Below are positions 12,970 to 22,948 of a DNA stretch of 64,000 nucleotides, one piece after another. Source of the stretch: Pseudomonas entomophila. GTDB lineage: Bacteria; Pseudomonadota; Gammaproteobacteria; Pseudomonadales; Pseudomonadaceae. The notes below the pieces were generated by a model, which worked only from the letters and a program-made list of their open reading frames with translations, did not search any database and was not told where the DNA came from. Each line of letters starts with the position of its first letter. The stretch's first letter is position 1. Made by a program: the position numbers and the translations under genes. Location: positions 1 to 64,000 of the forward strand of contig NZ_JAAMQI010000022.1 in NCBI RefSeq assembly GCF_013523165.1. The letters run 5' to 3'.

Positions 12970-15900
12970 ATGACCCTAGCTCCTGCCTACACCTTCCTGG
13001 ATTTCCCTGGCGAAATGGCGCGCTTGATGCGCGAAAAGGAGTGGTCACAAACGCCCTTCGGCCCGCTCGAAGGCTGGTCCCAGGCCTTGCGCTCGGCCGT
13101 CAGCATCTGCCTGGGGTCGCGCTTCCCGATGGTGCTGTACTGGGGTGAGACCCGCGCCCTGATCTACAACGACGCCTGGAGCCCGGTGCCGGGGCGCAAG
13201 CACCCAGCGGCCCTGGGCAGCCCGGGGCCCGAGGTGTGGGCCGAGATCTGGGACATCATCGGGCCGATGTTCGACCACGTGATGGACACCGGCGAGGCCA
13301 CCTGGTCCGAAGACCAGCTGCTGCCGCTCAACCGCTTCGGCTACACCGAAGAGTGTTACTTCTATTACAGCTACAGCCCGGTCCGCGGTGAGGACGGGCG
13401 AGTGGAGGGGATCTTCACGGCGGTCACCGAGACCACCTACCGTGTGTTGGCCACGCGTCGTGAACGCCTGTTGCGGCAGGTGGCCGAAGCCACTGCGCAG
13501 ACGCGCACCCCAGCGGATGCCTGTCAGGCGGTGGCCCGGCTGCTTCACGGCGTGCCGCAAGAGGCGCCCTTCGTGCTGGTCTACCTGGCCGACCCGGCCT
13601 CCGGTGGCTACCGCCGTGTGGCCATCGAAGGCTGCGCGGCGGCCGACGATCTGGCACCGGCGGTGATCCTGCCGGGCGAGCACGTGACGCCCTGGCCGCT
13701 GCACAGCGCCCTGGACGCCCCGGTGCCGGTCGAAGGGCTTGCGTCACGCTACCCGGGACGGCTGTCCGGGCAGCCCTGGCCGGAGCCGCTGGAGCAGGCG
13801 CTGGTGGTGCCGGTGCCGAGCGCGCGTGCCGGTGTGCCCTATGGTTTCCTGATCCTCGGCATCAGCCCGCGTCGACGCATCGACCCGGATTACATCACCT
13901 TGTTCCAGCGCGCCGCAGGGCACGTGAGCACCGCGCTGAGCAACATCGAGCGCTATGAAGAAGAGCGTCGACGCTCGGAGGAACTGGCCGAGCTGGACCG
14001 GGCCAAGACCGTGTTCTTTTCCAACGCCAGCCATGAGTTCCGCACCCCGCTGACGCTCATGCTCGGCCCCCTGGAAGACATGCTGGGCCAGCACACCGAA
14101 ACGCCCGGGCAGCTGACGGTCGCGCGCGAGTCGCTGCACCTGGTCCATCGCAACGGTCAGCGGCTGCTGCGGCTGGTCAACACGCTACTGGACTTCTCCC
14201 GTATCGAGGCCGGCCGCGTGCGCGCCGACTTCATGCCCGTTGACCTGTCCGCGTTCACGGCGGAACTGGCCAGCAGTTTTCGCTCGGCCATGACGCGCGC
14301 CGGGCTGGCGTACCACATCGACTGCGACGTGCTGGGCGAGGCGGTCTGGATCGACCAGGAGATGTGGGAAAAGATCGTCCTCAACCTCATCTCCAATGCC
14401 TTCAAGTACACCTTGAGCGGGCAGGTCAGCGTGCACCTGGCGCGTGTGCCCGAGGGCGCGCGCTTGCAGGTTCGGGACACCGGGGTCGGCATCCCGCAGC
14501 AGGAGCTCGAGCGCATCTTCGATCGTTTTCACCGCATCGAAGGCCAGATCGGTCGCACGCACGAGGGCACGGGGATCGGCCTGGCCCTGGTCAAGGACCT
14601 GACCCGGCTGCACGGCGGGCAGGTCGGCGTACGCAGCGAAATTGGCGTGGGCACGTGCTTCGAGGTGCTGCTGCCGTTCGGCAATGCGCACCTGCCGGCC
14701 CGCAAGGTCCAGGGCAATGCCCTGACCTCGACTGCCATCCATGCCGACACCTTCGTCGCCGAAGCCTTGCGCTGGCTGCCCGAGCCTGGCGGCGATGCGC
14801 TGCCGATGGGCGAGCGTACCGTTGGCCAGGCCAAGCCCAGCAACGGCCTGCACATCCTGCTGGCCGACGACAATGCCGACATGCGCGGCTACGTGCAGCG
14901 GCTGCTGACCGAGGCCGGTTTCGCCGTGACCGCCGTGGCCGATGGGCGCGAGGCGGTCGATCAGGCTCGCCGGGTGCGGCCCGACCTGGTGCTGTCGGAC
15001 ATCATGATGCCGGTGCTCGACGGCTTCGGGGTGATCCGGGCCCTGCGCGACGACCCGGCGACCCATGAACTGCCCATCATCCTGCTGTCGGCCAGGGCCG
15101 GCGAGGAAGCGTCCATCGAGGGCATCGCCGCCGGTGCCGACGATTACCTGGTCAAGCCGTTCAGCGCCCGGGAGCTGATCGCGCGGGTGGACGGGGCGCT
15201 GCGCCTGGCCAAGCTGCGCCAGGAGTCGGCCGCTGCGCTGCGCCAGGCCAACGAGGTGCTGGAGTCGCGGGTGCGCGAGCGTACCCGCGAGCGTGATCAG
15301 GTCTGGGCCTTCAGCCATGACATGATCGGCATCGCCGACCTCGAGGGCGTATGGCTCAGCGTCAACCCGGCCTGGACTCGGGTGCTCGGCTGGCCCGCCG
15401 AGCAGATCGTCGGCAAGACGTCGGCGTGGCTGGAGCACCCGGACGACAGCACCCGCACGCGTGAGGAAATCCAGGCGCTGGCCATTGGCGCGCCGACGTT
15501 CAACTTCGAGAACCGCTTCCGCACCCGGCTGGGCAGCTACCGCACGCTGAACTGGACGGCCGTGCCCGAAGGCGGCCTGCTGTACTGCGTGGCGCGCGAT
15601 GTCACGGTCGAGCGCGACCGGCTGGCCGAACTCGAACAGGCCAAGGACGCCTTGCGCCAGAGCCAGAAGATGGAAGCGATCGGGCAACTGACCGGTGGCA
15701 TCGCTCACGACTTCAACAATTTGCTGACCGGCATCATGGGGTCGATGGAGATGCTGCAGCGCCATGCGCTGCCCGAGCACCCCCGTGCCCAGCGCCATAT
15801 CGGCAACGCCATCGTCTCGGCGCAACGCGCCGCCGCATTGACCCAGCGCCTGCTCAGCTTCAGTCGGCGCCAGGCGCTGGACATGCGGCCGGTGGACGTG

Positions 15901-16794
15901 AACCGGCTGATCACCGGCATGGAGTTCCTGCTCCAGCGCACCGTGACCGAGAACATTCAGGTCGAGCGTGTCCTGCAGCCCGAGGCCTGGACCGTCCATA
16001 CCGATGCCAACCAGCTGGAAAACGTGCTGCTGAACCTGTGCATCAACGCCCGCGACGCCATGGGCGAGACGGGGCGGCTGCGGATCTGCACGCGCAACGT
16101 CGTGCGCTCGGGCCCCGTGACGAGCGATGGGCCCCTGGCCGGCGACTACCTGTCGCTCGAGGTCAGCGACACCGGCGAGGGCATCGCGCCAGACCTGCTG
16201 GACAAGGTCTTCGAGCCGTTCTTCACCACCAAGCCCCAAGGCAAGGGCACCGGGCTGGGTCTGTCCATGGTGTACGGCTTCGTCAAGCAGACCGGTGGCC
16301 ATGTGGAAGTCCAGAGCACGCCAGGGCAGGGCACCTGCATGACCCTGCTGCTGCCGCGCCACCGGGGCACGGTGACAGGCCTTGCGTCCGAACTGCCGGC
16401 GGCAGCCAGCGTGCTGAAGACCGGCACCGGTGAACGTGTGCTGTTGGTGGAGGACGAGCCCAGCGTCCGTCTGGTGGCCACCGAGCTGCTGACCGAGGCG
16501 GGGTACCATGTCGCCGAGGCCGAGGATGCGCAGGCGGCCCTGGCACTGGTCGACCGCGAGCCGGCCTTCGACCTGATGGTGTCCGATGTCGGTCTGCCGG
16601 GGCTGAGCGGTCGCGAACTGGCCGACCGGGTCAGGAGCCGCCAGCCGACGATCAAGGTGCTGCTGATCACCGGCTACGCCAAGGACGCCGGTAACCTCCG
16701 GCACTTCCTCGGCGAGGGCATGCACATCCTGCAAAAACCCTTCTCGGTAGAGGCCCTGGCCATGAAGGTTCGGGACGTGCTGCACGGCGCTTGA
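12970..16794 (+). CDS. Hybrid sensor kinase with two kinase cores and two receivers
   Basis: This 1274-residue protein has an unusual order: an N-terminal PAS-like domain (residues about 30-170), a GAF domain (about 180-330), HisKA plus HATPase (H-box SHEFRTPL, His355; GTGIGLALV), and a receiver (phospho-acceptor Asp677 in SDIMMPVLDG). A PAS domain (about 770-880), a second HisKA plus HATPase (GGIAHDFNNLL, His913; GKGTGLGLSMVYG) and a second receiver (Asp1206 in SDVGLPGLSG) complete it. No membrane segment is seen, so it should be cytoplasmic and sense an internal or diffusible signal. The ATG at 12970 was preferred to a GTG at 12925; neither has a clear ribosome site. No DNA-binding output domain exists. 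Confidence 0.9.
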   Translation: MTLAPAYTFLDFPGEMARLMREKEWSQTPFGPLEGWSQALRSAVSICLGSRFPMVLYWGETRALIYNDAWSPVPGRKHPAALGSPGPEVWAEIWDIIGPMFDHVMDTGEATWSEDQLLPLNRFGYTEECYFYYSYSPVRGEDGRVEGIFTAVTETTYRVLATRRERLLRQVAEATAQTRTPADACQAVARLLHGVPQEAPFVLVYLADPASGGYRRVAIEGCAAADDLAPAVILPGEHVTPWPLHSALDAPVPVEGLASRYPGRLSGQPWPEPLEQALVVPVPSARAGVPYGFLILGISPRRRIDPDYITLFQRAAGHVSTALSNIERYEEERRRSEELAELDRAKTVFFSNASHEFRTPLTLMLGPLEDMLGQHTETPGQLTVARESLHLVHRNGQRLLRLVNTLLDFSRIEAGRVRADFMPVDLSAFTAELASSFRSAMTRAGLAYHIDCDVLGEAVWIDQEMWEKIVLNLISNAFKYTLSGQVSVHLARVPEGARLQVRDTGVGIPQQELERIFDRFHRIEGQIGRTHEGTGIGLALVKDLTRLHGGQVGVRSEIGVGTCFEVLLPFGNAHLPARKVQGNALTSTAIHADTFVAEALRWLPEPGGDALPMGERTVGQAKPSNGLHILLADDNADMRGYVQRLLTEAGFAVTAVADGREAVDQARRVRPDLVLSDIMMPVLDGFGVIRALRDDPATHELPIILLSARAGEEASIEGIAAGADDYLVKPFSARELIARVDGALRLAKLRQESAAALRQANEVLESRVRERTRERDQVWAFSHDMIGIADLEGVWLSVNPAWTRVLGWPAEQIVGKTSAWLEHPDDSTRTREEIQALAIGAPTFNFENRFRTRLGSYRTLNWTAVPEGGLLYCVARDVTVERDRLAELEQAKDALRQSQKMEAIGQLTGGIAHDFNNLLTGIMGSMEMLQRHALPEHPRAQRHIGNAIVSAQRAAALTQRLLSFSRRQALDMRPVDVNRLITGMEFLLQRTVTENIQVERVLQPEAWTVHTDANQLENVLLNLCINARDAMGETGRLRICTRNVVRSGPVTSDGPLAGDYLSLEVSDTGEGIAPDLLDKVFEPFFTTKPQGKGTGLGLSMVYGFVKQTGGHVEVQSTPGQGTCMTLLLPRHRGTVTGLASELPAAASVLKTGTGERVLLVEDEPSVRLVATELLTEAGYHVAEAEDAQAALALVDREPAFDLMVSDVGLPGLSGRELADRVRSRQPTIKVLLITGYAKDAGNLRHFLGEGMHILQKPFSVEALAMKVRDVLHGA

Positions 16795-16821: not shown

Positions 16822-18375
16822 TCAGAGCTTGAAGCGCACGTGGATCTTGCTGGTCGGCGCCGTTCGGTCGACCGAGATGCCCCGGTCGCCGAACCCGGAG
16901 TAGCCCTTGATCAGGCGCATGCCCAGGCCTGTGCCGTTGGGTTTGGGGTAGGCCTCGGGGAAGCCGTCGCCTTCGTCGATGACGATCACCTCGATGGCCT
17001 CGGCATCGACCTCCTCGACCCGTACGACGATGTCCCCCTTGCCGTACTTCAAGGCATTGGTCACCAGCTCGCAGATCACCAGGCCCAGGGGCGCCAGGCG
17101 CTCGGCCCTGATCGAAGTCGGCTCGATCGACAGCTGGATGTCACGGTCGTCGAACGCCTTGCCGACGTCCTCCATCAAGGCATGCAGGTACTCGCTGACG
17201 CTGGCTTCGTGGCAGTTGTCGTCCAGGTAGAGTCGCTCATGCACCGCAGCGATGGCCAGCACCCGATTGGCTGCAGTCTGCAACTGGAGCTTGACCGTTT
17301 CTTCGGTCGCCACGTTGGCCTGCAGCAACAGCAAGGTGTTGACCAGTTGCAGGCTGTTCTTGATCCGGTGGTGGATCTCGTGAAGCTGCAGATCGCTCTC
17401 GCTGATCCGGGTGGTCTGCGCATCGATCAGCGACATCAGCTGGAGTTCATGGTTACGCCGCTCGGTGACGTCCCGGGAAATCGCGATGATCTTGTCGATG
17501 TTCTGGTGCTTGTCGTAGATCGGCGCCGCCGTGACGTCCCACCATTTCGGTTCGCCCTTGGCGGTAGGGCAGAACGACTCGAACCGTACCGATTCACCCA
17601 TGACCAGGCGCTGCATGGCATTGCGAACGGTCGGCTTGGCGTCTTCCGGCCACAGCTCGACCCAGTTCGAGCCGTTGACCTGCTCGGCATTGTCGAGCTG
17701 CATGCGGCATACCCCGGCCTCGTTGAAGAACTCGATGGTGCCGCACGGTGAGAGGATCTTGACGCAATCGGGGCTGGCGTTGAGCACGCTTTCGGAATAC
17801 GGAAGCGGGTGGGCTTCCTCGTCGCGCATGGCCATGCGTTCGACCGCCATCGCAATGACGTTGGCGATGCCCTCCATGAACACCAGATCGCTTTCGATGA
17901 AGTCGGTGTCGTCGCCACTGTCGGCTTCCAGCACGCCGTAGGGGCTGGACGGCCCTCGGATCGGGACGTTGATCGCACGCCGGATCTCATAGCGCTTGAG
18001 CAGCGAGGGGGTTCGGAAACGGTTTTCCTGGCCCAGGTGGTTGGAGATCACCGGTCGATCGGTCATGAACGCATAACCTGCCGGGCTGGCCTCGTCGGCA
18101 CCGATCGTGGCATGGCCGATGTCCTGCGCGTCCCAGCCCACCCCGTGTGAAAGCAGGAAGTGCTCGGCGTCGGGAAGCGGGGTCAGGATCTTGGCATAAG
18201 GCGTGCGCATGCCTTCGGCGACCGTGGCACAGGCTTGCGTCAGCAGCGCATCGATGTCCGTGGCATGCAGCGAACCTACGCCGAAGTTGACGACCAGCTC
18301 GTGCTGCTTGCGCAGCCGGGCATGGGAGATCTGCAACGCCGCACGAACCGTTTCGTCGGGAGAAGTATCAGGCAT
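16822..18375 (-). CDS. GAF-PAS sensor histidine kinase of the HisKA_2 type
   Basis: The 517-residue cytoplasmic protein has a GAF domain (about residues 30-180), a PAS domain (about 195-305) and a HisKA_2 dimerisation region with EIHHRIKNSLQ (phospho-acceptor His335 or His336). An HATPase domain follows with N-box ELVTNALKY (436-444) and G-box GTGLGMRLI. This kinase class often acts in light, stress or general stress-response pathways, but no LOV cysteine motif (NCRFLQ type) is seen in the PAS. Its stop is 27 bases from the stop of the hybrid kinase. No response regulator gene is adjacent, so the receivers of the neighbour are possible partners (inference). Confidence 0.88.
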   Translation of the reverse strand: MPDTSPDETVRAALQISHARLRKQHELVVNFGVGSLHATDIDALLTQACATVAEGMRTPYAKILTPLPDAEHFLLSHGVGWDAQDIGHATIGADEASPAGYAFMTDRPVISNHLGQENRFRTPSLLKRYEIRRAINVPIRGPSSPYGVLEADSGDDTDFIESDLVFMEGIANVIAMAVERMAMRDEEAHPLPYSESVLNASPDCVKILSPCGTIEFFNEAGVCRMQLDNAEQVNGSNWVELWPEDAKPTVRNAMQRLVMGESVRFESFCPTAKGEPKWWDVTAAPIYDKHQNIDKIIAISRDVTERRNHELQLMSLIDAQTTRISESDLQLHEIHHRIKNSLQLVNTLLLLQANVATEETVKLQLQTAANRVLAIAAVHERLYLDDNCHEASVSEYLHALMEDVGKAFDDRDIQLSIEPTSIRAERLAPLGLVICELVTNALKYGKGDIVVRVEEVDAEAIEVIVIDEGDGFPEAYPKPNGTGLGMRLIKGYSGFGDRGISVDRTAPTSKIHVRFKL

Positions 18376-18555
18376 GGAGTGTCCAGGGGGGGTAACGAGC
18401 TGTTCGAACGGGTCACGCCCGCGACAGGCAAGCGGCGACAGCGCGCAAATGTACACAAGCGCGCGCCTGCGGCATAGCGGTGAGTCAAGAGGCGTTGTCT
18501 GTCGTCTTTCGCATCGGACGAGCGGCGTTTGCCAGAACGGCGTCCCGCCCCACGA

Positions 18556-18606: not shown

Positions 18607-21600
18607 TTAACCGTGGGGCTTGTGAGCCTCGGTCGAGGCAGGCAGCTCCGAGGCCCGCTCGCCAGGGGCGGCAGAGATGGCCTGGTCGGCAGCAGCCTGG
18701 GCGGCAGCCGCAGCTGCTGCCGCGGCGGCTTCGGCTTCACGCTTGCGGCGACGCACTTCACGTGGGTCGTTCGGCGCGCGGCCGTTGGGCAGCATGATGG
18801 TCGAAGGCTCGACCGTCGCCAGGTCCGCCGCTACAGGGTCCGCTTCGGCCTTGGGGGCTTCAGGCTGGGCCTCGGGCTTCACTTCGGCGCTCACCGGTTC
18901 GCTGGCCGGCGTCTCGACGGCAGGCGCGACGGCCGGGGTGTCGACCTCGGTCGCGGTCTGCTTCTCGATTTCACCGGCTTCGCTTGGCGCTGCCTGGGTC
19001 ACGGACGTCTCGACCGAAGGCTGCTCGGCAGGGACGTCGACATCGGCGGCGACAGGGGCGGGCGCGGCGTCGGCGTCGGCCTTGGGCTGCACGACATGCA
19101 CCGGATCGGCTTCGTCCGAGGCCACCGGTGCCGCTGGCTGCGACTCGGTCTCGCCTGTTTCGGCGATGGCTGCGGCGCTCGGCGCTTCGGCCGCTGGCGG
19201 CGGGGTCACTTCGACCACCGGCTCCAGGCCTGGCTCGACGCGGGCGGCGGGTGCCTGAACAGGCTGCTCGACCACTGGCGCGACGGTCACTTCGTCGGAC
19301 GAGGTCACCACGGGGGTGGCGTCGGCGACGGCGTCGGCAGACACGTCCACGGCCGGGGCCTCGACACGCGCGGTCGCACGCTCGGCCTGCTCGTTGGCCT
19401 GGGCATGGGCCTCGCTGCTGACGGCGCTGCTGGCCACGGCGGCGGTCACGGCCAGGCCTGCGGCCAGGTCGGCGCTCTGCGGGGAGGGCGTGTGCTGGCG
19501 CGGCGACTCGTCACCGGATTCCTCGTCGGTGCCTTCGATCAGCTCGCCGTTGGCATTGCGCTGGCGTTCACGACGATTGCTGCGACGACGCTGGCCGCGC
19601 GAACGACGGCGCGGACGCTCCTCGTCGCTGCCATCGTGCGTGTCGTCCTGCTGCGACTCGTCCACAGACAGGGCCTCGGCAGTGGCGTCGGCAGCCTCTT
19701 CCTGGACCTGTTCGGCCGCACGTGGCTGACGCTCTTCACGAGGCTGACGCGGCTGGCGCTCTTCGCGAGGGGCAGAGGCCTCCTGCTCAGCGCGTTCTTC
19801 CTGCTGTGGACGCTCTTCGCGCGAAGCAGGTGCTGCGTGTTGCGCGTGCTCTTGCGGCTGAGCCTGCACGTCCTGCGCAGCCTCGTCCTCGCGGGCGACA
19901 CGCTCTTCGCGTGGTGCGCGTTCTTCACGGGGTGCACGCTCTTCACGAGGCGCACGCTCTTCGCGTGGGGCGCGTTCTTCACGAGGTGCGCGCTCCTCGC
20001 GGGGTGCACGCTCTTCACGTGGGGCGCGTTCTTCACGCGGTGCACGCTCTTCACGGGCCGGGCGTTCCTCGCGGGCGACGCGCTCCTCACGGGGTTGACG
20101 CTCTTCACGTGCTACCGGGGTAGCGTCCAGCGGCTCGCGCAGTTCGCGTACCGGGCGCTCGTCGCGGTTGCCACGACGGTCATCACGCGACGAGCGGTTG
20201 TTACGCTCTTCACGCGGTGCACGTTCTTCACGGGGCTGGCGTTCTTCACGTGGCTGACGCTCTTCGCGGGGGGTGCGCTCGTTACGCTCCTCGCGTGGCT
20301 TGCGCTCTTCGTCACGGCGACCGTTGCGGTTGCGGGTCTGCTGACGGCCGTTGCGACGCTCCTCGTTGCGCTGGGGGCGCTGCTGTTGCGGCTCGGCAGG
20401 TTTCTCGGCCTTGGCGACCGGGGCCGGGGCAGGCTCTTCCTTACCGGCGAACAGGCTGACCAGGGACTTGACCAGGCCCTTGAACAGGCTGGGCTCCGGT
20501 GCGCTCTGCGGCTTGGCGACCGGGGCAGGCGCCGGTGCCGGTGCGGCAGGCGCTTCCTCGACGGCGGCTGGGACCGGTGCATCCCCTCGCGGTGGCGCGG
20601 TCTTCACGGCGGCTTCCTGGCGAACCAGGGTGCGCGTGGCCGGGGCCTGCGGGGCTTCCTCGACTTCGGTGGCGGCGATTTCGTAGCTGGACTGGCAGGT
20701 CAGCACGTCCGGGTTGTCATCGCGCAGGCGCTGCACTTCGAAGTGCGGCGTCTCGAGGTGATCGTTCGGCAGGATGATAATGCGCGCACGGGTACGCAGT
20801 TCGATCTTGGTGATCGAGTTGCGCTTCTCGTTGAGCAGGAACGCCGCGACCGGGATCGGCACCTGGGCACGGACTTCGGCGGTGCGGTCCTTGAGGGCTT
20901 CTTCCTCGATCAGGCGCAGGATCGCCAGCGACAGCGATTCGACGTCACGGATAATGCCGGTGCCGCTGCAACGCGGGCAGACGATGCCGCTGCTTTCGCC
21001 GAGCGAAGGACGCAGGCGCTGACGGGACATCTCCAGCAGGCCGAAGCGCGAGATGCGACCGACCTGCACGCGGGCACGGTCGGCCTCGAGGGCTTCGCGC
21101 ACGCGCTCTTCGACGGCGCGCTGGTTCTTCGCCGGGGTCATGTCGATGAAGTCGATGACGATCAGGCCGCCGATGTCACGCAGGCGCAGTTGGCGAGCGA
21201 TCTCTTCGGCTGCTTCGAGGTTGGTCTGCAGGGCGGTCTCTTCGATGTCGCTGCCCTTGGTGGCGCGCGCCGAGTTGATGTCGATGGAGACCAGGGCTTC
21301 GGTGGGGTCGATCACGATCGAACCACCGGACGGCAGCTCGACGACGCGCTGGAAGGCGGTCTCGATCTGGCTTTCGATCTGGAAGCGGTTGAACAGCGGG
21401 ACGCTGTCTTCGTAGAGCTTGACCTTGCTGGCGTACTGCGGCATCACCTGGCGAATGAAGGTGAGGGCTTCTTCCTGGGCATCGATGCTGTCGATCAGCA
21501 CTTCGCCGATGTCCTGGCGCAGGTAGTCGCGGATGGCGCGGATGATGACGTTGCTTTCCTGGTAGATCAGGAACGGCGCGGAGCGGTCGAGGGAGGCTTC

Positions 21601-22179
21601 CTTGATCGCGGTCCACAGCTGCAGCAGGTAGTCGAGGTCCCACTGCATCTCTTCGCTGCTGCGGCCCAGGCCGGCGGTGCGAACGATCAGGCCCATGTCG
21701 GGCGGGATGGACAGGCCGTTGAGGGCTTCGCGCAGCTCGTTGCGCTCTTCGCCTTCGATGCGGCGGGAGATGCCGCCGGCACGTGGGTTGTTGGGCATCA
21801 GCACCAGGTAGCGGCCGGCCAGGCTGATGAACGTGGTCAGGGCTGCGCCCTTGTTGCCGCGTTCTTCCTTCTCGACCTGGACGATGACTTCCTGGCCTTC
21901 GCTGAGCACTTCCTTGATGTTGACCCGGCCTTCAGGGGTCTTCTTGAAGTACTCGCGGGAGATTTCCTTGAGCGGCAGGAAGCCGTGGCGTTCGGAGCCG
22001 AAGTCGACGAAGGCGGCCTCGAGGCTGGGCTCGATACGGGTGATGCGGCCCTTGTAGATGTTGGCCTTCTTCTGCTCGCGCGCACCGGACTCGATGTCCA
22101 GGTCGTAGAGGCGCTGGCCATCCACCAGAGCTACACGCAACTCTTCGGGTTGAGTTGCGTTAATCAGCATTCTTTTCAT
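18607..22179 (-). CDS. rne: Ribonuclease E
   Basis: RNase E is the essential endonuclease of mRNA decay, rRNA and tRNA maturation and the scaffold of the degradosome. The 1190-residue protein starts [15 protein letters not shown], exactly the E. coli-type N-terminus. It has an S1 domain (about 35-120), the catalytic DNase I-like domain with the Mg-binding aspartates in [12 protein letters not shown] and VIDFIDM, and the zinc-link CPRCSGTG. The C-terminal half is disordered. It holds an Arg/Glu-rich RNA-binding stretch with eight copies of REERAP, a long acidic Ala/Pro/Glu region and, near the end, a poly-Ala helix. A good sigma-70 promoter lies about 710 bases upstream and a terminator follows. 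Confidence 0.97.
19909..20056 (-). repeat. 18-bp tandem repeat within rne
   Basis: Eight near-identical 18-bp units encode the hexapeptide REERAP in the arginine-rich region of RNase E. Flanking degenerate units read [12 protein letters not shown] and REERVA. Each unit keeps the frame, so gain or loss of units would change only the length of the RNA-binding segment. Confidence 0.85.
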
Positions 22180-22948
22180 GTAGTACCGTCGGTTTCCGGG
22201 CTGCCGGAAACGGCGTTCGGCACACACGACTTCTCATGGTCGGTGCCAAGGTGCGCAAGCAGTGGCGGGCCACTGCTCTTGTCCAGCGACGTACGGTACC
22301 GACCGGTTGCCCGGTGCGGCCGAGGTCGCGACGACGCGTCCTGTTTGCTGCGGTGCCTACTGCACTCAGTCAGGAGGAGGAATCAGCTTTCGGCCGTGGA
22401 TGCCCGCGGGCATCTGCATCGAGACCAGGTTCACCCGCCAGGCCTTGCAATGGCCAGGAGAGGCGGACACCGTGCTACACGGTCCGAGGAGCTGTGCATC
22501 TCCACCCTGCACATGTCCCTGAAAATTCGGGTGCTGCCGCGCGCTGAATCCGCAACGGGTTGCATGGTTCGCCCGCGTCGATGGGAGCGCGGACGGATTC
22601 GTGTCCGAGGCAGGTATTTCCGAAGCGTTCGCCGTGCGCTGCGTGGAAGCGCCAGGCTGGCAGAGGGACTGAAAGCAACGGGGAAGGAGGTGAAACACCG
22701 CACTTGTCGTTTTTTTTCGGGCTTCTCTACGCGGCGCTGGTGGCGATTCCAGGCAATTCGTTAAACTGGCAAAGCTCCGTCGGACGGCCTCGCGTCCTCG
22801 AGAATTGCGTCGATCAGGGGCGGGCGAGCTGTCGCTTTTCATCACGTGCCGCACCAATTGCCGCTGACCTGCCACTTTTGGCGGCACTCGCGACTATAAC
22901 AGCAATGATTAAGTGCTTCAATTCCATAAAAATTGTATGATTCGGGCC
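22180..22948. other. rne leader and rne/rluC divergent promoter region
   Basis: This 769-bp gap separates divergent rne and rluC. It has several short open frames, but none shows family sequence or a good start. Given the promoter at 22893-22921 it is best read as the long 5' untranslated region of rne, which in E. coli mediates autoregulation by RNase E. T-rich and hairpin-forming segments are present, but I could not define a fold by eye. Confidence 0.6.
22893..22921 (-). promoter_or_regulatory. Sigma-70 promoter for rne
   Basis: On the minus strand TTGAAG (-35, 22921-22916) and TATAGT (-10, 22898-22893, preceded by TGT) are spaced by 17 bases. The predicted start is near 22886, giving a leader of about 700 nt. 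It sits only 28 bases from the rluC start codon, so the two promoters must nearly overlap. Confidence 0.75.

Follow-up and report, generated by a model that had tools for sequence, protein, structure and literature searches.

The purpose that a second kinase core serves in some sensor kinases is little understood. This question is raised by a gene of Pseudomonas entomophila, found in a 64,000-nucleotide stretch of assembly GCF_013523165.1 (contig NZ_JAAMQI010000022.1, positions 1 to 64,000; hereafter the window), which encodes a hybrid kinase with two such cores. The gene (12970..16794, + strand) runs from an ATG start to a stop codon and encodes 1274 amino acids, as established from its reading frame, Pfam matches and homologues. 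Its domains are arranged in the order PAS-GAF-HK1-REC1-helical linker-PAS2-HK2-REC2, where HK denotes a histidine kinase core and REC a receiver. The best explanation of the protein is that it is a two-stage soluble sensor, in which a portable front module (PAS-GAF-HK1-REC1, residues ~12-768) is joined to a CckA-type PAS-HK2-REC2 kinase. This account is carried by the domains and intact catalytic residues of the protein, the exchange of C-terminal partners behind the front module, and the different origins of the two cores.

Domain architecture and catalytic residues

Scanning with Pfam detected HisKA, HATPase_c, Response_reg and PAS twice each at scores exceeding the curated cut-offs, in the order PAS_4, HisKA, HATPase_c, Response_reg, PAS, HisKA, HATPase_c and Response_reg. 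The N-terminal PAS domain (residues 66-158; 13165..13443, + strand, as for all features of this gene) scored 27.2 bits against PAS_4 (cut-off 23.1); its assignment rests on Pfam, since the structure model of residues 1-357 (mean predicted local distance difference test score, pLDDT, 68.7) was weak in this region, with block values of at most 52 across residues 51-160. The GAF domain (residues about 180-323; 13507..13938) was matched by GAF_2 at 22.7-23.1 bits, under the cut-off of 28.6, and was instead identified from the same model, which had pLDDT values of 75-94 across most of residues 161-330 (one block, 63) and matched the solved GAF domain 3ci6 (E 1.3e-7, template-modelling (TM) score 0.70 by target). 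Phytochrome PAS-GAF modules also ranked highly against this model, with poor superposition. HK1 (14005..14679) consists of HisKA (residues 346-415; His355 codon 14032-14034) and HATPase_c (462-570), and is followed by REC1 (Response_reg, residues 629-740; 14854..15189; Asp677 codon 14998-15000). In the structure model a predicted single helix (residues 733-781; 15166..15312) leads from the last REC1 helix to PAS2 (Pfam, residues 782-882; 15313..15615), beyond which lie HK2 (15682..16359; HisKA 905-969, HATPase_c to about residue 1130; His913 codon 15706-15708) and REC2 (Response_reg, residues 1157-1267; 16438..16770; Asp1206 codon 16585-16587).

An earlier note on this DNA, made from the letters alone, had read this domain order and claimed two complete cores and two receivers in one chain, with His355, His913, Asp677 and Asp1206 intact. 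Pfam, the residue check and the homologues bear it out, the GAF domain through its structural match; the four residues were correctly identified and are conserved in relatives. A domain search for a degenerate core, which the note had proposed as a check, was run with Pfam: both cores proved complete and no degenerate domain was detected in the protein. The sequence check also found the ATP-site boxes to be kept in HK1 and HK2 alike. The protein lacks an output domain, as had been claimed, REC2 being without an effector. A chance origin of the chain is excluded by the existence of whole-length homologues at 70% identity.

By Pfam and the residue check, two complete transmitters (T) alternate with two receivers (R) in the chain, and it is this feature that it shares with the TRTR proteins of published surveys. 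The census in PMC3018481 counted 51 proteins with two transmitters among 4650 hybrid kinases, such that the layout was fairly called unusual; the kind is nevertheless known, as TRTR proteins are described in PMC4603909, where the four from myxobacteria are said to be non-orthologous to each other. The double-core kinase is hence real, intact, rare and of an already known kind. Among 64 HATPase_c matches in its own genome, the window frame was the only one listed with two above the cut-off. Elsewhere in that genome, a 788-residue frame (G000:C27:3967-6177) has one HATPase_c match of 57.9 bits and another of 26.0 bits, the latter slightly under the cut-off.

A conserved front module with exchanged partners

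The closest named relatives, from P. rhizoryzae (L034) and P. matsuisoli (L037), are 70% identical to the window protein over the whole chain. Query cover of at least 80% was reached in 19 of 93 matching records, two of these stopping before REC2, and whole-query double kinases were found on plasmids of Methylobacterium (52%), Azospirillum, Rhizobium, Shinella and Cupriavidus. Within the genus, the full-length query matched the whole chain in one piece in 3 of 199 genomes, its own included; in a fourth (G181) it matched over residues 5-762, in a protein that is also a double kinase. A front-module profile, A1 (17 rows, the window protein among them; genome counts at E up to 1e-180), detected the module in 5/398 genomes of the genus and 12/398 of the phylum (own genome included in each), in 8/199 of one order and in 36/150 of one family. 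The window protein matched this profile over its whole length with H355 and D677 present, at 1217.5 bits, a score that is partly by construction. Hosts of the module include a haloarchaeon, Streptomyces, Deinococcus, a cyanobacterium and proteobacteria. It was not recognised in the titles and abstracts of open-licence literature, which is weak evidence of absence.

A total of 67 front-module proteins (window included) were analysed, each aligning with the greater part of the profile at a score of at least 600; five matches were dropped. This is not a fair sample, in that 32 proteins come from one family of the window's class and others from plasmids. His355, the following Glu, Asp677, the Lys of the receiver and those ATP-site residues that were inspected were present in 67/67, under a score threshold that favours intact modules, and the second-core His, Asp and Lys were present in all 45 proteins with the window's type of second kinase. 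Identity of the 66 relatives to the window protein averaged 67% in DHp1, 63% in REC1, 54% in the ATPase, 48% in the N-terminal PAS and 31% in GAF. DHp1 and REC1 are thus the most conserved parts and GAF the least, a variability that would fit a changing ligand.

Behind this front, the C-terminal partners differ. There were 45 AHDFNN-type (CckA-type) kinases, labelled by that motif, with seven (window included) also scanned with Pfam; in two proteins so labelled (L197 and L201) Pfam did not report HisKA at E up to 1e-5. Another 12 were other HisKA kinases, all Pfam-scanned and pooled under one label that may be mixed, and six were HWE kinases. The remaining partners, one each, were a SpoIIE phosphatase (Streptomyces, L121), a PAS-REC-LuxR end (Roseomonas, L124), BAT (Natrinema, L120) and sensor domains only. 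Pfam detected no HisKA in the C-terminal parts of L120, L121 and L124, leaving REC1 without a second-kinase His as phosphate acceptor, and yet their REC1 (60-64%) and DHp1 (62-71%) identities to the window protein lie in the same range as those of the others. The replacement of the second kinase by a phosphatase or DNA-binding part suggests that the first receiver need not pass phosphate. The Natrinema (archaeal) protein is encoded on a plasmid and comprises the complete front module, PAS and GAF repeats and BAT, its frame being open at the end of the stretch. Another relative (L192, 1512-3809, - strand) consists of the front module, PAS-HK-REC and Hpt, and is thus a double kinase carrying its own phosphotransfer domain.

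The exchange is seen at close range in a Massilia protein (L035). Over residues 1-165, the proteins of P. rhizoryzae, P. matsuisoli and Massilia reach 86-90% identity to the window protein, and the Massilia front as a whole is 63-64% identical to that of the window (PAS 86%, GAF 51%, HK1 66%, REC1 66%). Beyond it, identity drops to 29% in PAS2 and 38% in REC2, the window HK2 matches only HK1 of L035 (29%), and the second kinase belongs to a different class, with an AHELRNP box in place of AHDFNN. The P. rhizoryzae and P. matsuisoli proteins, in contrast, retain 66-76% over PAS2 and HK2. Parts of the front module also occur apart from it. Three proteins (L046, L022 and L047) carry only its PAS-GAF part (profile positions 1-331) ahead of an HK2-type kinase, without HK1-REC1, and a frame at L058 (11488-13632, - strand) begins with a PAS domain 36% identical to window residues 2-173 and continues as PAS-HK-REC without HK1. 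The N-terminal PAS type thus seems to be mobile itself.

Separate origins of the two cores

A tree of HK2 was inferred from 162 sequences thinned to 67 rows, comprising 20 from double or other kinases that bear the front module, 42 from kinases lacking HK1-REC1 (including L046, L022 and L047, with their front-module PAS-GAF), two StyS/TodS and three HK1 sequences; L119, the TodS-like protein and L192 were flagged by the program as long branches. HK1 formed a clade separate from HK2 (support 100/99). The window HK2 and those of L034 and L037 lay inside a starred 27-row clade, in which 22 rows were kinases without HK1-REC1. The double-kinase label required eight changes on this tree, at least five of them forced by starred branches, against a shuffled mean of 17.6; it is more clustered than expected by chance, and some groups therefore share one event. 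The HK2s of double proteins nonetheless form no single group, which makes several fusions or swaps likely.

Internal duplication of one core was rejected as the origin of the pair, as the tree places the two cores in different clades and each core matches its own StyS/TodS counterpart better than it matches the other core. The phylogenetic test of a fusion of two genes, proposed in the earlier note, supports such a fusion, given the different clades and the position of the HK2s among kinases lacking HK1-REC1. As judged from these sequences, the two cores have separate histories, having been joined more than once, or the second core having been swapped. A second tree, built by a quick method from 50 front modules (after thinning) plus StyS/TodS, required 15 changes of the partner label (one being the StyS/TodS label; least possible, seven), and the AHDFNN label was clustered on it (6 changes; 17.4 when shuffled). 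Two findings go beyond the census passages of PMC3018481 and PMC4603909: the front module is portable and combines with different outputs, and the second core arose separately and repeatedly.

A comparable order is also encoded by two genes. Of 80 relative loci, 15 were examined, chosen for a match that included a REC-PAS-HK-REC frame; frames were read from stop to stop and their starts are unsure. An HK1-like frame overlapped the REC-PAS-HK-REC frame in 10 of the 15 (L050, L053, L055, L057, L058, L059, L064, L067, L068 and L101), the two frames were apart in L054, L065, L091 and L095 were arranged otherwise, and no HK1-like frame was seen at locus L086. These pairs, from Pseudomonas and others, have the same T-R-T-R order as the window protein, spread over two overlapping frames, and the HK2s of L068 and L050 belong to the same starred clade as that of the window. 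They differ in that HK1 is separate, lacks the front PAS-GAF, and is 30-36% identical to the window HK1; being no closer to it than the HK1 of TodS/StyS, this arrangement is possibly independent. At L058 (3261-8689, Pseudomonas), the overlapping frames stand behind RsbRD/STAS and HATPase-SpoIIE-like genes, the upstream SpoIIE match being under its cut-off; stressosome loci followed by kinase and receiver modules are described in PMC9237108.

Relationship to TodS, StyS and CckA

StyS of Pseudomonas sp. VLB120 (L227) was taken from an annotated record, with StyR alongside. The TodS-like protein used is 91% identical to a presumed stretch of TodS of P. putida, and the PAS1 used for comparison matched the PDB TodS chain. 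Both share the PAS-HK-REC-PAS-HK order with the window protein and align colinearly with it, StyS over residues 323-1135 (30%, E 7e-99) and the TodS-like protein over residues 328-1136 (28%, E 1e-93). The window HK1 is 36-38% identical to their HK1 and 23-26% to their HK2, and REC1 is 35-39% identical; PAS2 matched StyS weakly (31% over 71 amino acids). No match to StyS or the TodS-like protein was obtained for residues 1-330 at E up to 1, including to the aromatic-sensing PAS1 of TodS, hence the sensor end differs. The window protein further differs in its added GAF domain, in a REC2 fused to its C-terminus and in an HK2 of the AHDFNN type. StyR adjoins StyS, whereas such an adjacent LuxR-type regulator, a TodS/StyS trait, is absent here, the neighbours being murB, a HisKA_2 kinase and rne.

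The second half resembles kinases of the CckA/PRK13557 kind. Residues about 798-1273 matched PRK13557 at 459.9 bits (cut-off 631) and residues about 890-1272 matched CckA models at 366.2 and 434.8 bits; the NCBIfam equivalog cut-off of 1000 was not reached, and the protein is accordingly not assigned to CckA. Here the PAS-HK-REC kinase is placed behind a second hybrid kinase.

Proposed coupling of the two cores

In the mechanism that we favour, a signal at PAS/GAF would set HK1 autophosphorylation on His355, and HK1 would then phosphorylate Asp677 of REC1. REC1 would alter the helix leading into PAS2 and thereby toggle HK2 between kinase and phosphatase states, with PAS2 contributing a second input; HK2 (His913) would phosphorylate Asp1206 of REC2, and the signal would leave via a separate histidine phosphotransfer (HPt) protein. 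The genome contains 11 Hpt matches, and just a single one belongs to a frame of fewer than 700 amino acids; its gene is located behind a SpoIIE-HATPase gene and before fliK, an order which we take to resemble the HptB arrangement of pseudomonads. This HptB-like protein would be the leading candidate to receive the REC2 phosphate.

A monomer model of residues 619-1274 (mean pLDDT 78.0; predicted TM score 0.36, at which domain arrangement is unreliable) contained an unbroken helix at residues 733-781 (block pLDDT 68-90) and another at 879-932, from PAS2 to DHp2 with His913 (block pLDDT 55-73). The former, together with the exchange of outputs, favours an action of REC1 through the helix. For CheS3, the authors of PMC3868531 propose that REC1 governs the kinase attached to it and does not accept phosphate from that kinase, and in PMC12143880 coiled-coil linkers are presented as interchangeable coupling elements for kinases, phosphatases and cyclases. 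We therefore prefer steering of the following part by REC1 to a strict TodS-type relay, as a proposal with an even chance of being correct. The more general form of this proposal is held somewhat more tentatively, namely that a self-phosphorylating PAS-GAF-HK1-REC1 module steers kinases, a PP2C phosphatase and a DNA-binding part through the helical joint after REC1, which in double kinases would be an allosteric input and not a relay step.

The earlier note had suggested an internal phosphorelay, and a linear relay of the TodS type (His355 to Asp677 to His913 to Asp1206, with the histidine domain of HK2 as phosphotransfer domain) is possible, if the less probable reading. Such a relay is reasonable by analogy with TodS, for which a His-Asp-His-Asp relay is reported (PMC4321377, PMC4861429); according to PMC4861429, His190, Asp500 and His760 are all required for multistep signalling to Asp57 of TodT. 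The colinear alignments with StyS and the TodS-like protein agree with this precedent, and a proposal in PMC3018481 makes TRTR loci such relays. That much of the suggestion stands; its necessity is questioned by the same front module occurring with C-terminal parts devoid of HisKA, the phosphatase and DNA-binding replacements suggesting that REC1 need not pass phosphate. Moreover, as 42 of the 67 rows in the HK2 tree are kinases without HK1-REC1, an HK2 of the window type need not be only a phosphotransfer domain, and the HK2s of StyS/TodS stand apart from it, a weak point given their long branches. Two parallel His-Asp pairs, sharing a chain with little cross-talk so that fusion secures stoichiometry or location, are an improbable alternative: HK1-REC1 and HK2-REC2 each look like a self-contained cognate pair, and the latter is widespread without the former, but REC1 lacks a dedicated output within the window protein, its strong conservation across different outputs and the unbroken predicted helix suggest coupling, and in the two-gene arrangements of Pseudomonas the HK2 protein still bears a REC while the other kinase is a separate, overlapping gene. 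That one core is a pseudo-kinase, serving only as scaffold or phosphatase, is very improbable, the boxes being intact and conserved in both cores; nothing in the sequence speaks for it, and its precedent is the second transmitter of the Red system, which appears unable to autophosphorylate according to PMC3018481.

Several observations weigh against steering by REC1. TodS, with the reported relay, has the same domain order and a homologous HK1-REC1, and a HisKA-type second kinase is present behind 57 of the 67 front modules and an HWE kinase behind six more, so that a relay is chemically possible in most of these proteins, the non-kinase outputs being three single proteins. The REC1-PAS2 linkers vary in length, and a seven-residue periodicity was not shown: the linker landmark gave 16 hits, some clearly false, with 10 at a spacing of 69 and the others at 31, 48, 49, 58, 83 and 110, after 11 of the 67 proteins missed by the Lys pattern were dropped. 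For the 'other HisKA' and HWE labels on the front tree, 279/500 and 85/500 shuffles, respectively, gave values as low; both labels are no more clustered than the shuffles, so that this tree says little about the timing of swaps. The phosphotransfer steps are themselves putative, and the HPt link would follow by elimination only. Steering and relay may both hold, in different members.

Genomic neighbourhood

The gene upstream of the double kinase is murB, preceded by lpxK, kdsB and a low-molecular-weight phosphatase gene. Downstream, at a distance of 27 bases and in convergent orientation, lies a gene for a second soluble sensor kinase (16822..18456, - strand; GAF-PAS-HisKA_2-HATPase by Pfam), which the earlier note overlooked, followed by rne (18607-22227, - strand; RNase_E_G, 338 bits). 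The note's statement that no regulator is adjacent holds for response regulators among the genes typed at 8.8-22.2 kb. Both kinase genes sit between murB and rne. In 10 of 29 other genus genomes (30 searched, 29 yielding the locus) a piece of rne was found at most 1.5 kb behind murB; matches may have been missed because RNase E shows poor conservation in its C-terminal half, and some may be due to chance because the low-complexity filter was off. The kinase pair looks like a lineage-specific insertion.

The double kinase of P. rhizoryzae adjoins a LysR gene and a chemoreceptor gene, and that of P. matsuisoli ABC-transporter and MFS genes, each a different neighbourhood from that of the window gene. 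No match to the HisKA_2 neighbour was obtained in the flanking stretches examined of these two species. A partnership between the two convergent kinases is unsupported, as the relatives at 70% identity have other neighbours.

Implications

Natural proteins with one front and different outputs, including the second kinases of the window and Massilia proteins, constitute a ready experiment on the function of two cores. A response of His-bearing ends alone would mark the middle receiver as a relay; control of kinase, phosphatase and DNA-binding ends by one and the same front would mark it as an allosteric switch.

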